This document shows positions 3,140 to 10,155 of a stretch of DNA of 64,000 nucleotides, one piece after another. Source of the stretch: Sorangium aterium (GTDB lineage: Bacteria; Myxococcota_A; Polyangia; Polyangiales; Polyangiaceae); the NCBI RefSeq assembly GCF_028368935.1, contig NZ_JAQNDK010000002.1, forward strand, positions 434,001-498,000. Reading direction: 5' to 3'. Positions within the stretch are counted from its first letter, which is position 1, and every line of letters begins with the position of its first letter. Made by a program: the position numbers and the translations under genes. Under the pieces are notes generated by a model. It searched no databases. It was not told the origin of the DNA and saw only the letters and a list, made by a program, of their open reading frames with translations.

Positions 3140-3541
3140 CTAGTCGCCCTCGTACTCGCAGCGGGCGTCGCAGGTCTCGAAGATGGTGACCCGGTTCAAG
3201 GACGGCAGCGACGGCGCGAGGCGGCTCCAGATCCACCGGGCGAGCACCTCGCTCGTCGGGTTCTCCAGCCCGGGGACCTCGTTCAGGTAGTGGTGATCGA
3301 GCAGGTCGTGGAGGGGAGCCCAGGCCTCGTAGAGGTGGCTGTAATCGATGAACCACCCCGTCTCCTCGTTCACCGGGCCGCGGATCGCGACCTCGACCTT
3401 GAAGCTGTGACCGTGGAGGCGCGCGCACTTGTGCCCCTGCGGAACCCTGGGAAGGCGGTGGGCGGCCTCGAAGCGGAACTCGTGTACGAGACGGACGTTC
3501 ATCGGAGCAGCGGTCATGGGGCGGCCGCCGTGGGGCGTCAA
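3140..3541 (-). CDS. queD: 6-carboxytetrahydropterin synthase (QueD family)
   Basis: 133 aa, the normal size for this family. It makes 6-carboxy-5,6,7,8-tetrahydropterin from 7,8-dihydroneopterin triphosphate on the way to queuosine and other 7-deazapurines. Zinc ligands H28, H43 and H45 (FEAAHRLP and RLHGHSF) are present, as are the catalytic Cys of GHKC (C39) and the conserved Glu in IFETCDA. Other queuosine genes are not in the window. An internal start at MTAAPMNV is possible because the first 8 residues are not conserved-looking. Eukaryote-type PTPS is an alternative assignment, but the GHKC arrangement favours QueD. Confidence 0.88.
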
Positions 3542-3762: not shown

Positions 3763-3786
3763 GAGCACCGGCCGCGGCCGGTGCTC
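3763..3786. terminator. Perfect 24-bp palindrome between convergent genes
   Basis: The 12-base arm gagcaccggccg is followed directly by its exact reverse complement. It lies between the stop of the small basic gene (3757) and the stop of the minus-strand GAF gene (3785-3787). There is no T-run, as is common in GC-rich genomes. It is probably a bidirectional terminator; the role is inferred from position. Confidence 0.55.
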
Positions 3787-5362
3787 AGCTCGCCGGCTCG
3801 TCCTCTTCGTTGTCGTCCGGCCCCGGCGACGCCGGTCCCCTGCGCCGCGCCGCGCGAACGGTCGCGACCTCGGCCCTGGACGGGTTGATCACGAGGAAGC
3901 CATGGTCTGCGTCGAGGAGCGCGACGTCTCCCGGCGATGCCCAGCGGAACGCCCCCGCCACATCCACGATCGACGGCACTTCCAGCAGCTGGAGGAGCAC
4001 GAGCGAGCGCGGCCCGGACCGGTCGCTGAGCGCGACGCCCACCGGGTGGGCCCGGGCGGAGATCAGGAGGTCGAAGACCGTCAGCTGGTCTCCCACGAGG
4101 ACCGCCTTCGACGGGAGCTCGGCCCGGGCGTCCGGGGTCGCCAGCATCAGGATCGCATCGCAGAGATCCTCGATGTCGCGGGCGCGATCCTGCAAGAACG
4201 GGTCGCCGACGATCCCGTTGGCGGCCCGCGCCACCTCGCGAGCGACCGTCCCGAGCGCCTGCGCGACGTTGCGCCCGCTGGCCGTGAGCTCGAAGGCGCG
4301 CGCGCGCAGGCGGCCGTCGCCGATCATCAGGAGGTAGGTCGAGAGGAACGCCGCCTCCTGCGCGAGCCCTCGCTTCGCCGCGCGGGCGTTGAGGTCGAGG
4401 AGCGCCTTCTCCGCGATGTCGAAAGCGAACCGCAGGAGCTTCGGATCGCCGCTGCCCTGCCGCGCGCCGAGCGATGAGGTCGCCGGCCGCCGCAGGGCCG
4501 CGATGGCGCCGAGCGCGCGCCCCGCGACGACGGGCAACCCCGGCAGCGTGACCTTGCGCGTGCCGCCGCCCGTGCGCCGCCGCCGCTCGCGGAGCTCGTC
4601 GAGCACCTGCGCGTGGCGCGCGCCGGCCGCGATCGGCGCGGTCAGCGCCATGACGAGCTCGACGTCGCGCGCCGTGAAGGCGCGATCGCCCGCCCGCTGC
4701 ACGACCAGGGCGCCGAGCGGGCGGCCGCTGCCGAGGATGGGCGCCGCGAGGAAGACCGGGAAGCGCTCTTCCCGGAGCTCGGGGAACGCCCGGTAGCGCT
4801 CGTGCTCGGTCGCCTGGACGACCGAGATCGGCCGCAGGCACTCGACCGCCATGCCCGTGATGCCCTGGCCGACCGAGAGCCGCACCGTGCCGCGCGCCTC
4901 GCGCGGAAAGCCGACGTTGCCGCGCAGCACCAGCTCGTCGCCGTCGCCCTCGAGGAGGTACAGCGAGGCCACGTCGGCGCCGAGGATCGCGGCGATCCGC
5001 TGCGGCGCCTCGTCGAGGAGGAGCGAGAGCGGCATCGGCTTCGCCACGAAGGCGAGGTACTCGATCACGAGATCCAGGCGCTCATCGCGGCGCACCTGGA
5101 TCCTCGCGGAGGCGACCGACGGCGGCGCGCCCTCGTCGTCGGTATCCGCGGCGCGGGCCGAGCTGCGGGCCGGGTCGCTCGAGACGGACGCGTCCTCCTC
5201 GTCGGGGCCGGGCCCGTCCAGCGCGCGGTCCGGGAAGCTGTCCCGTGAGCCTTCCACGTCGGACGGCGTCGCGGACGGGCTCGCGATCGCTTCGAGCTCC
5301 GTGGGCGGATGGGTCGCCTTCGGATCGGTGCGCGACGACATGCCATGATCGCTATCACACAC
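3785..5362 (-). CDS. GAF protein with PtsI-like but catalytically dead phosphotransferase module
   Basis: 525 aa. An acidic, low-complexity N-terminus (1-90) is followed by a GAF sensor domain (~95-255), then regions like PEP-utilising enzymes: a swivel start (LPGLPVVAGRALG, ~273), an all-helical HPr-binding-like part (~310-408, with DPFLQDRARDIEDL) and a mobile domain (~415-495). This is the order of PtsP (nitrogen-PTS enzyme I), but the PEP/pyruvate barrel is absent. The phospho-accepting His expected in TSHxAI aligns with Arg452 in SGPRSLVLL, so phosphotransfer is not expected. It may be a sensor that binds a PTS partner (inference). GTG at 5362 or ATG at 5341 are both possible starts; neither has a clear ribosome site. 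Confidence 0.7.
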   Translation of the reverse strand: MCDSDHGMSSRTDPKATHPPTELEAIASPSATPSDVEGSRDSFPDRALDGPGPDEEDASVSSDPARSSARAADTDDEGAPPSVASARIQVRRDERLDLVIEYLAFVAKPMPLSLLLDEAPQRIAAILGADVASLYLLEGDGDELVLRGNVGFPREARGTVRLSVGQGITGMAVECLRPISVVQATEHERYRAFPELREERFPVFLAAPILGSGRPLGALVVQRAGDRAFTARDVELVMALTAPIAAGARHAQVLDELRERRRRTGGGTRKVTLPGLPVVAGRALGAIAALRRPATSSLGARQGSGDPKLLRFAFDIAEKALLDLNARAAKRGLAQEAAFLSTYLLMIGDGRLRARAFELTASGRNVAQALGTVAREVARAANGIVGDPFLQDRARDIEDLCDAILMLATPDARAELPSKAVLVGDQLTVFDLLISARAHPVGVALSDRSGPRSLVLLQLLEVPSIVDVAGAFRWASPGDVALLDADHGFLVINPSRAEVATVRAARRRGPASPGPDDNEEDEPAS

Positions 5363-5489: not shown

Positions 5490-6614
5490 TCAGGGCGTCC
5501 GCAGGTCGACGGGTCCGTCGAGGGGCGGGCGCTGCATCCACCCGAGCGCAGAGAGCCGCGCGCGCGGGGCTGCCGCGGCCGCCGCGCGCGTGAGCGGCCC
5601 GGCTCCGCCCGCGCCGATCGCGGTGATCGCGCCGCGGATCGGCGCGAGCAGCGCCGGCGCGGCCTCGGCGCTGCTCGCCGCCACGTGGACCACGCGCGCC
5701 GCGGGCGGCAGCAGCAGCGATCGCGGCGCCGGATCCAGGCCGACCCCGTGCCCTCGACCTTCCCAGAACGAGCCCACGGCCTCGAGCGTGGCCCGGTACA
5801 TGGTCACCTCCGCGCGGGCGGCGCCGTCGAGCGGCCCGCGCGGGACGCGCGCGCCCAGCTCTTCGAGCGCCTCGTGCAGGGCGCGCGCGAGCGCCTCCGC
5901 GCGCTCGGCCGGGCCTTCCACCAGCACGAAGCGCGGCGACAGGCAGCCGCGCTGATCGAACGGCGCGACGTCCGCCGCGATGTCCCGCGCCGCCTCGGCG
6001 AGGTTCGCGCTCAGGCCGACGACGGCGAGCCCCAGGCCGGCGCCATGCCCGCGCACGAGCACGCCCGGGCCGACCTGGGCCCGCAGTGTGGCCACGGTCT
6101 GGTCCGAGCCGTAGACGTGCAGCTCGGCGCCCGGCAGATCCCCGGGGCCGCCCTCACCGGCCGCCGGCGCCCCGGCGTCCCCGAGCGCGATGTCCGCGAC
6201 CAGCGCGATGGTCCCGCCTGCGCGGCGGAAACCTTCGTCGGCCTGCAGCGCGCGCACGAGGAGCTCCGCGACGACGGGATCGCGGCGGGACGGGCGCACG
6301 ACGACCTCCGGCGCTGTCGCCGCCGCGACGGCGATGGCCCGCAGCGGCGCCGTGCAGACGTTGGCCGCCAGGACCACGTGGCAGCGGCGCGCGCGCCCCG
6401 AGGCCGCCACGAGCGCGTCGAGCTCGCGATCGCTCGGCGCGATCTCGAGGTGGCGGCCGAGCGCGAGCTCCACGCCCTCCTGCGAGAGGCCGCTCGTGGA
6501 AGGCAGCCGCTGGCGCGCCTCCTCGCCCAGCGGATCGCGCGCGTCCGCGATCCGCGCCGCCGCGGCGACGGCGCGCTCGACCCGGCGGCGCCGCGCCGCG
6601 CCGTCGTCCATCAT
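5490..6614 (-). CDS. LuxC-like acyl-CoA/acyl-protein reductase
   Basis: 374 aa. LuxC proteins reduce an acyl thioester with NADPH to a free aldehyde. The nucleophile motif FDQRGCLSP (C224) matches the LuxC active-site pattern. Other aldehyde-dehydrogenase-like segments are visible: AANVCTAPLRA, VVVRPSRRDP and VYGSDQTVA. The protein is shorter than classical LuxC (~480 aa), mainly at the N-terminus. The ATG overlaps the LuxE stop by one base (TGATG), so acyl activation and reduction are almost certainly coupled. No luxA, luxB or luxD is beside it, so light production is not suggested. A much longer open frame covers this gene, but its upstream part is a shadow of the LuxE-like gene. Confidence 0.8.
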   Translation of the reverse strand: MMDDGAARRRRVERAVAAAARIADARDPLGEEARQRLPSTSGLSQEGVELALGRHLEIAPSDRELDALVAASGRARRCHVVLAANVCTAPLRAIAVAAATAPEVVVRPSRRDPVVAELLVRALQADEGFRRAGGTIALVADIALGDAGAPAAGEGGPGDLPGAELHVYGSDQTVATLRAQVGPGVLVRGHGAGLGLAVVGLSANLAEAARDIAADVAPFDQRGCLSPRFVLVEGPAERAEALARALHEALEELGARVPRGPLDGAARAEVTMYRATLEAVGSFWEGRGHGVGLDPAPRSLLLPPAARVVHVAASSAEAAPALLAPIRGAITAIGAGGAGPLTRAAAAAAPRARLSALGWMQRPPLDGPVDLRTP

Positions 6615-7807
6615 CACGGGCCGCCGCCGAGCATCTGGTCCATCGCGATCGAGCAGCCGCGCGGCGGCGCCCCGGACGCGCGGCCCAGGAGCTCGACGCC
6701 CTCCGCGGTGACGCGCACGCGGTCGGCGGTCTGGATGGCGACCGCCGAGTCGACGTTCGCGAGATCGACGATCCGCGCGAGCCCGATCGCGCCCGCAGGG
6801 AGCGGCGCGAGCGTCTCGGGGTCCACCGCGGTGACGCGCGTCCAGGGGGGCGCGAGGTACAGCCCTGGCGCCGCGCGCGGTGCGCCGGCGAGCGCCGCCG
6901 CGAGCGTGCCCTCGTAGAGCTGGCTGGAGAGCTCGGTCATGCCGTACTCGCTCACCACATGCGAGAGGGGCACGCCCAGCGCCCGCGCGATCGACGCCCG
7001 CAGCTCCTCCGCGGGCACCTCGCGCGAGCGGCCCTTGTAGCCGCCGGTCTGCATGACCCGGCTCCCTTCGGGCAGCAGCGCCGCGCCCTCGGGCAGCTTC
7101 GCCTCGATCAGGTGCACGAAAGCGAACGATGTTCCGAGCACGAGCGCCGGCTCGCCCGAGGCGCGCGCCTCGGCGCACGCGCGGGCGAACCCTGCGGCGT
7201 CGAGCTCGCCGCCGCGAACGTGCCAGCTCGCCGGCCCCGAGAGGCGCGCCGCGAAGCGGTCGATCATGAACCCGAGCGACGAGTCCGGCGCCTCGTCGAG
7301 CGGCGGCGCGAGGACGATCGCCCGGAGCCGCGCGCCGTCGGGCCACAGCAGGCGCTCCCCCCACGCGAGCGCGGCCAGCTCGTACGTGGCGGTCGTGCGG
7401 AACGGGTGCTCGCCGCGGGACGCCGCGCCGAGGGAGGTCCCGCTCGTGCGGAAGACGCGCTCGTCCGCCTCCGGCGGGTGGGCCGCGACGCGCGCGAACC
7501 GGAACACGTCGCACGGCACAGCGGGGATCTGCGCCGCGAGATCCATCGCGGCGACGTCCGCGCCGCGCGCCTCGAAGAGGCGGGCGACCGGCGCGCAATG
7601 CGCGGCCTGGTGCCGGGCGAGGGCGAGCGCGAGCGCATCGAAGGTCTCCGGCAGCGCCCCGCGCTCGCCCTGGTCCTGCGGAGGAGAGGCTCCCGCCGCT
7701 CGGCCGGCGCCTGTCGAGCCCGCCCCGTCCACGCGGAGCGACGCCTCGATGAACGCCCGCGCGCGGCGGTGCAGCGCCTCGCTCTGGTCTATCGGTCCCA
7801 CGGGCAC
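6614..7807 (-). CDS. LuxE-like acyl-protein synthetase
   Basis: 397 aa, GTG start at 7807 with no clear ribosome site. LuxE enzymes adenylate a carboxylic acid with ATP and carry the acyl group on a C-terminal Cys before passing it to LuxC. Visible motifs are FRTSGTS (residues 119-125, nucleotide loop), GGYKGRSRE, SEYGMTELSSQLYE and the C-terminal PRGCSIAMDQML, whose C385 fits the acyl-accepting Cys. It sits between a class III aminotransferase gene (42 bp upstream) and LuxC (1-bp overlap). The acid substrate cannot be read from the sequence; fatty acids are usual for the family. Confidence 0.85.
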   Translation of the reverse strand: MPVGPIDQSEALHRRARAFIEASLRVDGAGSTGAGRAAGASPPQDQGERGALPETFDALALALARHQAAHCAPVARLFEARGADVAAMDLAAQIPAVPCDVFRFARVAAHPPEADERVFRTSGTSLGAASRGEHPFRTTATYELAALAWGERLLWPDGARLRAIVLAPPLDEAPDSSLGFMIDRFAARLSGPASWHVRGGELDAAGFARACAEARASGEPALVLGTSFAFVHLIEAKLPEGAALLPEGSRVMQTGGYKGRSREVPAEELRASIARALGVPLSHVVSEYGMTELSSQLYEGTLAAALAGAPRAAPGLYLAPPWTRVTAVDPETLAPLPAGAIGLARIVDLANVDSAVAIQTADRVRVTAEGVELLGRASGAPPRGCSIAMDQMLGGGP

Positions 7808-7849
7808 CGGGATAGCACGCGCGTCCTGCTCCGCTCGCGCGCTAGGCCG

Positions 7850-9211
7850 TCAACACGCGCGCAGCACGCGGGCGAGCGCCCCGGCCGCGGCCGAGAGCAG
7901 CGCTTCGGGGATGGTGAGCGCCGGCGTCAGCGTCAGCGTCTCGCCGCGCACCCCGCCCGTGAGGACCAGGTACCCTTCCGCCAGCATCCCGCGCAGGGCC
8001 CGGAGCCCGAGCTCGGCGCTCTCGAGCTCGACGCCGACCATGAGCCCCGCGCCCCGCACGTCGACGACGCCCGCCCTGCGTGGGAGCGCCTCCCGCAGCA
8101 TCGCCTGGAAGCGAGCGCCCACGTCGCGCGAGCGCGCGGCCAGCCGGCCTTCGCCGAGGGCGTCGAGCGTCGCGAGCGCGGCGCTCGACGCGAGGGGCGA
8201 TCCGGAGTGCGTCGAGGTGTGGACCACCTCGCCCTCGCGCGCCCACGCCCGCATGATCGGCTCGGGCGCCACGCACGCGGAGATGGGCAGCCCGCCGCCG
8301 AGCCCCTTGCCGAAGCAGAGGATATCGACCGGCGCCCCGAGCTCTCCTGTGCGCGTCATCGCCCCCGATCGACCGAGGCCGGTCCAGATCTCGTCCGCGA
8401 TCACGAGCGCCCCGTGCCGGTGCGCCGCTTCGCAGACCGCGTGCAGGAACGCGTCGGGCGGGACGACGCAGCCGCCCCGCCCGAGGATCGGCTCGAGGAG
8501 GACCGCGCCGACGTCGCCCCCGCGCAGCGCGAGCTCGACGGCGTCGACCGAGCGCGCGGCGCCCGCCTCGTCGCGCGGGTAGGGCGCGAACGTCACGCGC
8601 CGGTTGAGCTGCTCCGCGAAGGGCGCCCTGTAGCTCTCGCGCAGCCCGCACGCCGCGAGCGGCGCGTACCCGAGCCCGTGGTACGCGCCCTCGAACGCGA
8701 CGAGCCCAGGCCGTCCGGTCGAGAGCGCCGCCGTCTTGACGGCCGCGGTGATCGCGTCGCTGCCGCTCTGGCCGAGCAGCGCCATGGGCGAGGGCCCGGG
8801 GTGCAGCGCCGTGAGGCGCTCCAGCAGGGCGATCTTCACGTCGGCCGAGTACACGTCGCCGAGCGCGAGGGTCAGCCGCGACAGCTGCTCCTCCGCCGCG
8901 CGCCGCACCGGCGCCGCCGCGTGGCCGAGCAGCAGCGCGCCGAAGCCGGCGCACAGGTCGACGTACCGGTTCCCGTCGACGTCGCAGACGTTCGCGCCGC
9001 GCCCGTGCGACAGCACGATCGGCAGCATGTCGGCGCCGCTCTTCTGCGCCCGCGCCTCGCGCCGCCGGCCGAACGCCGGGCACTCGACGCGCTCGAGCCG
9101 CTCGAGGGCGCTCCGCGACAGGGGACCAGGCGGCGGCGACAGGATCGCGGGCAGCTCAGCGCCGCTGCCCGCGTCCGGCGCCGCCGGCAGCGGCAGATCG
9201 CTGTTCGGCAT
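7850..9211 (-). CDS. Class III PLP-dependent aminotransferase
   Basis: 453 aa, ATG at 9211 preceded by a good GGAGG site. Fold-type I class III features: VDLCAGFGALLLGH, substrate/cofactor loop LGQSGSDAITAAVK (~146-159), IADEIWTGLGRSG with D273, and the Schiff-base Lys in CFGKGLGGG (K302). Members move amino groups onto omega-aldehydes or ketones (ornithine, GABA, diamine and related aminotransferases). Its place just upstream of acyl-activating and acyl-reducing genes suggests that it aminates the aldehyde made by the LuxC-like enzyme; this is inference. It could instead supply an amino-acid substrate for the pathway. Confidence 0.85.
   Translation of the reverse strand: MPNSDLPLPAAPDAGSGAELPAILSPPPGPLSRSALERLERVECPAFGRRREARAQKSGADMLPIVLSHGRGANVCDVDGNRYVDLCAGFGALLLGHAAAPVRRAAEEQLSRLTLALGDVYSADVKIALLERLTALHPGPSPMALLGQSGSDAITAAVKTAALSTGRPGLVAFEGAYHGLGYAPLAACGLRESYRAPFAEQLNRRVTFAPYPRDEAGAARSVDAVELALRGGDVGAVLLEPILGRGGCVVPPDAFLHAVCEAAHRHGALVIADEIWTGLGRSGAMTRTGELGAPVDILCFGKGLGGGLPISACVAPEPIMRAWAREGEVVHTSTHSGSPLASSAALATLDALGEGRLAARSRDVGARFQAMLREALPRRAGVVDVRGAGLMVGVELESAELGLRALRGMLAEGYLVLTGGVRGETLTLTPALTIPEALLSAAAGALARVLRAC

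Positions 9212-9255: not shown

Positions 9256-10155
<900 letters not shown>

Follow-up and report, generated by a model that had tools for sequence, protein, structure and literature searches.

A conserved aminotransferase-LuxE-LuxC operon of the Myxococcota as a candidate nitrile-free route from CDG to preQ1

What is made by an operon that joins a class III aminotransferase to LuxE-like and LuxC-like proteins? Such an operon lies in the window analysed here, a stretch of 64,000 nucleotides (contig NZ_JAQNDK010000002.1, positions 434,001 to 498,000) from the 13.5-Mb genome of the soil bacterium Sorangium aterium. Its three genes are:

9211-7850, minus strand: aminotransferase gene, 453 amino acids; class III (PF00202) pyridoxal phosphate (PLP) aminotransferase, Pfam Aminotran_3, E 3e-77
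7807-6614, minus strand: LuxE-like gene, 397 amino acids, GTG start; Pfam LuxE (PF04443), E 1e-8
6614-5490, minus strand: LuxC-like gene, 374 amino acids; Pfam LuxC (PF05893), E 1e-19

The aminotransferase and LuxE-like genes are spaced by 42 bp and the LuxE-like and LuxC-like genes overlap by 1 bp (TGATG), exactly the coordinates and tight clustering given in a preliminary description of this DNA, and all three Pfam matches exceed the curated cut-offs. That description proposed that the trio turns a fatty or other acid into a primary amine destined for a lipid or natural product. The acid-to-amine chemistry is probably right, as it fits the families, the active sites and the gene order; the product is another matter. 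From the sequence comparisons presented here, we think it probable that the trio converts 7-carboxy-7-deazaguanine (CDG) to preQ1 in queuosine biosynthesis by a nitrile-free route that replaces QueC and QueF.

Queuosine is among the best studied of the tRNA modifications, and preQ1 is the building block of its tRNA base. The product of QueD feeds QueE, which makes CDG. As the pathway has been described, QueC then converts CDG to preQ0, and QueF converts preQ0 to preQ1 (PMC13329287, PMC11130926). The idea that the trio makes preQ1 from CDG was prompted by a QueD-like gene that lies 1.95 kb from luxC:

3140-3541, minus strand: queD, 6-carboxytetrahydropterin synthase, likely ATG near 3502; NCBIfam TIGR03367, 104.1 bits, cut-off 89.25

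If the idea is right, then genomes with the trio should hold QueD, QueE, TGT and QueA, and be without QueC and QueF. The genome of the window has just this content: QueD is in the window, QueE is at G000:C6 (TIGR04349, E 3.5e-82), and QueA and TGT are adjacent at G000:C4, while neither QueC nor QueF was found in that genome. A second, divergent QueA-like protein (E ~1e-50), beyond the QueA beside TGT, is encoded at G000:C1:1394480-1395481 and occurs in many relatives.

Does this pattern extend to other genomes? The survey of que genes was limited to Myxococcota genomes, with QueC counted over two genome sets, and matches were accepted at E < 1e-15 for QueF and at E < 1e-50 for canonical QueC. 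TGT is present in 79 of 80 genomes and QueA in 80 of 80 of a nearly identical set, and every LuxE-positive genome tested has both. QueE matches, confirmed by NCBIfam for representatives, were found in 76/80 genomes, including 51/53 of those with LuxE. The distribution of the next two enzymes is very different. QueF is found in 1/53 LuxE-positive versus 20/27 LuxE-negative genomes (Fisher p 4.7e-12, a value that ignores relatedness), and canonical QueC in 1/72 versus 51/82 (Fisher p 7.7e-18, likewise ignoring relatedness). No canonical QueC was found in the 51 tested genomes in which the aminotransferase gene adjoins LuxE, and no intact QueF in 44 such genomes. The sole LuxE-positive genome with a QueF match is G208 (E 1e-16; L242:3153-3740, minus strand), where the paralog reads FLGVANQPDY at the site at which true QueF has TCVCPMTGQPDF; with GVANQPDY in place of CPMTGQPDF the catalytic Cys is absent, and the sequence indicates that this protein is probably not a nitrile reductase. 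A divergent QueC-like protein in the trio-bearing genome G146 (L239:3513-4964, minus strand) scores 58.8 bits against a cut-off of 150.3, and may have another function. The sister orders that have no trio, and families f39, f45 and f50, have QueC (E < 1e-60), and QueF (E < 1e-19) is present in most cases in which it was looked for. Genomes with neither LuxE nor QueC come mostly from families that otherwise have LuxE, and many of these are incomplete assemblies. The trio genomes thus have a gap in the pathway exactly between CDG and preQ1.

The trio fits this gap because the missing conversion is that of an acid to an aminomethyl group, as the three enzyme types would jointly carry out. LuxE, by family an acid-adenylating acyl-protein synthetase, would adenylate CDG with ATP, hold the acyl group on Cys385 and pass it to Cys224 of LuxC, a short thioester reductase that would reduce it, presumably with NADPH, to 7-formyl-7-deazaguanine. 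The aminotransferase, with PLP on Lys302 and glutamate or a similar compound as the presumed donor, would aminate the aldehyde to give preQ1 (7-aminomethyl-7-deazaguanine), which would go into tRNA via TGT, with further processing by QueA. The steps of QueC (CDG to preQ0) and QueF (preQ0 to preQ1) would thus be replaced. We infer the substrate, the cofactors and the order of the steps; the catalytic residues are plain to see, at these positions of the window:

about 8306-8308, minus strand: codon of the catalytic Lys302 of the aminotransferase
about 6653-6655, minus strand: codon of the acyl-accepting Cys385 of LuxE
about 5943-5945, minus strand: codon of the catalytic Cys224 of LuxC

Lys302, Cys385 (in RGCS) and Cys224 (in DQRGCLSP) are invariant across 23-24 relatives, and the two Cys residues, which the preliminary description had also recognized, align with the corresponding residues of the LuxC-LuxE complex structure 7xc6. 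The LuxC model (predicted local distance difference test score, pLDDT, 92) adopts an aldehyde dehydrogenase fold, and its top PDB match is 7xc6 LuxC. For the LuxE model (pLDDT 86.5) the nearest match is the phenylacetate-CoA ligase PaaK, followed by ClxA, in complex with an aminohydroxybenzoic acid and its adenylate, and by a protein of phenazine biosynthesis. These structural neighbors are activators of aromatic acids, which is compatible with a purine-like acid as substrate, though not proof of one. The aminotransferase was also considered as a missing ArgD, HemL or BioA, an idea not retained; the same genome holds several other class III aminotransferases.

How widespread is the operon? LuxE profile matches were found in 303 of 379 genomes sampled across the phylum Myxococcota; in the order Polyangiales, 170 of 184 genomes have a LuxC match. 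The aminotransferase, LuxE and LuxC genes lie in the same order and on the same strand at 67 of 80 LuxE loci on named GTDB contigs, so their clustering is not due to chance; at most of the remaining 13 loci LuxE is near a contig end. This gene order is found in the Polyangiales and in many further families of the phylum, and a 4-bp overlap of the aminotransferase and LuxE genes recurs among the relatives. The preliminary description held that its link would be weak if homologous clusters regularly lacked the aminotransferase, and we find that the gene is nearly always present. It had also looked to a fourth gene that uses the amine, and an all-against-all comparison of flanks over more than 40 families disclosed no conserved fourth gene of this or any other kind. 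The flanks are clade-specific and mutually unrelated (SUF, HPPK, metallophosphatase, Rrf2 and sigma factor genes). Because the gene order is kept while the flanks vary between clades, the trio is a standalone unit. It is an old, self-sufficient and mostly single-copy core operon, unlike a natural-product cluster. A search for phage or viral copies of LuxE found none.

In a few lineages, genes of queuosine biosynthesis lie close to the trio. The queD gene is downstream of the trio in Minicystis and in genome G071 as well as in Sorangium, where it is 1.95 kb from luxC. In G064 (family f10), queE is 3.0 kb upstream of the aminotransferase gene, and in G474 a TGT fragment, adjoining masked sequence, is 1.5 kb upstream. 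We note too that G358, which has no trio, has a queC-queE-queD operon, and that the trio-bearing G181 has queE-queD without queC. A QueE-like match next to the Polyangium trio was not counted, being only a distant radical SAM protein.

Comparison with known systems raises the question of how new such a route would be. The trio and the QueC-QueF pair would start from one compound, CDG, end at one product, preQ1, and fill the same stretch of the pathway, after QueE and before TGT. The sequences are unrelated, a Pfam search of the three trio proteins having given no match to QueC (PF06508) or QueF (PF14489), and we propose that the trio is a functional replacement without homology to either enzyme. 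The chemistry would differ as well: the trio would do without the nitrile intermediate preQ0, and the amino group would come by transamination rather than from ammonia followed by nitrile reduction. With the Lux system the relation is one of descent. LuxC and LuxE of the 7xc6 complex are homologous to the trio proteins, with an acyl-Cys and an acid-to-aldehyde reduction in both. The trio differs in having no LuxD or luciferase, in the addition of the aminotransferase, in a LuxC that is about 100 amino acids shorter than the 477-residue Lux protein, and in a substrate that is probably not a fatty acid. Its scores are far below the NCBIfam cut-offs of the Lux equivalogs NF052244 and NF052251 (24.7 of 550 bits and 23.2 of 750 bits), so that by sequence the family matches appear genuine but divergent. 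TamA/TamH of tambjamine synthesis and PigE of prodigiosin synthesis also carry out activation, reduction and transamination in series, with a PigE-like class III aminotransferase as in the trio; these differ in having fused domains, a thioester bound to an acyl carrier protein, a thioester reductase domain where the trio has LuxC, fatty substrates and a role in secondary metabolism. Finally, plasmids of Azospirillum, Pantoea, Priestia and Lactiplantibacillus carry sets in which LuxE, 30-36% identical, adjoins LuxC, and the aminotransferase is replaced by a short-chain dehydrogenase, often accompanied by a transporter. The composition of these sets suggests conversion of an acid to an alcohol, possibly in the salvage of a small heterocyclic acid. 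Since these related pairs sit with a short-chain dehydrogenase and a transporter, this branch of LuxE and LuxC need not use fatty acids. The plasmid pairs at L204, L205, L207 and L208 are accompanied by the dehydrogenase, several of them also by an ABC transporter or an SLC23-type permease.

There is, on the sequence evidence, a good chance that much of the Myxococcota has a second, non-homologous and preQ0-free route from CDG to preQ1, which displaced QueC and QueF several times. If so, the retention of queuosine without QueC and QueF in a large group of bacteria is explained, and preQ0 is not made there. Hundreds of genomes, in which these genes are called LuxE, LuxC or "acetylornithine aminotransferase family", would have their annotation corrected, and the substrates of Lux-type reductases would include a purine-like base as well as fatty acids. 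Our search of the literature found nothing that connects LuxE to queuosine or to aminotransferases of myxobacteria, nor any description of a route from CDG to preQ1 via the trio, subscription papers and preprints being outside its scope.

Several observations weigh against a preQ1-forming role. One is relatedness. A tree built from QueA and TGT of 74 genomes requires a minimum of 8 changes in LuxE and of 6 in QueC; on it the LuxE-positive, QueC-negative Polyangiales adjoin QueC-positive orders, and family f29, of the same type, adjoins the QueC-positive families f25 and f45. There are 5 supported independent contrasts for LuxE, of which QueC absence tracks LuxE in 3, opposes it in 0 and is unchanged in 2, giving a sign test p of 0.25. 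With so few independent switches, phylogeny alone could produce the association of LuxE with QueC absence; the pattern is consistent, but the events are too few for significance by themselves. There are also genomes that do not fit neatly. Family f29, which lacks QueC and QueF, has LuxE and LuxC side by side with the aminotransferase gene not adjacent, and G300, where the aminotransferase gene is again not adjacent, carries LuxE, LuxC and canonical QueC. Genomes G222, G314 and G392 have QueC, QueA and TGT and neither QueF nor LuxE, so loss of QueF can have other causes; they may reach preQ1 differently or have a QueF that has diverged. In ten genomes that are fairly complete, both LuxE and QueC are missing. 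The que genes neighbor the trio in just a few lineages, and an Rfam search of seven sources for a preQ1 riboswitch gave no match. The weight of the case for CDG as substrate is carried by the match of the trio's chemistry to the missing chemistry.

What else might the trio do? The first suggestion, a fatty amine used in a lipid or natural product, draws on the homology of LuxE and LuxC to the Lux fatty acid reductase, on the similarity of the aminotransferase to PigE, and on the precedent of TamA/TamH, fused adenylation-acyl carrier protein and transaminase-reductase proteins that turn fatty acids into amines (PMC9594044). Against it, no downstream enzyme or lipid gene is conserved in the neighborhoods of the operon. 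Its near-universal distribution is that of a core operon rather than of a secondary-metabolite cluster, ligases of aromatic acids are the closest matches to the LuxE model, and the mutual exclusion with QueC and QueF, whose absence the distribution of the trio mirrors, would have to be coincidental. We consider a fatty amine improbable as the product.

It is similarly doubtful that the trio has some other small-molecule role, with QueC and QueF lost through import of preQ0, preQ1 or queuine and the association simply inherited. Salvage of preQ1 and preQ0 is common in bacteria (PMC11130926) and the independent switches are few, as this account would have it. The salvagers in that study, however, are without QueD, QueE, QueC and QueF alike, and here QueE is retained nearly everywhere, as is QueD in the genomes checked. 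Import would also leave unexplained the presence of an acid-to-amine operon in exactly these genomes, and of queD or queE beside it. A further possibility, unlikely though less remote than these two, is that the preQ1 route in the strict sense comprises LuxE and LuxC alone, with some lineages relying on another aminotransferase or on one encoded elsewhere, and the adjacent gene being just one of the solutions. The arrangement in f29 speaks for this; in nearly all other lineages the aminotransferase gene is adjacent, often with the 4-bp overlap, and an unlinked orthologous aminotransferase in f29 would be in keeping with a three-enzyme conversion of CDG to preQ1. This is a variant of the preferred three-enzyme route and not an exclusive rival to it.

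The trio has two immediate neighbors in the window:

9256-10155, minus strand: FHA-GGDEF protein gene, 44 bp upstream of the aminotransferase gene
3785-5362, minus strand: gene with a GAF domain and a PEP-utilisers N-terminal domain (Pfam), between luxC and queD

The three trio genes each have a G+C content at third codon positions (GC3) within 0.93-0.96. The FHA-GGDEF neighbor is kept at most loci of the family to which Sorangium belongs, and not beyond that family. The GAF/PEP-utilisers gene adjoins the trio in only part of the family and is probably outside the trio's function. Its domain set is unusual, combining GAF with the PEP-utiliser N-terminal domain without the remainder of enzyme I.

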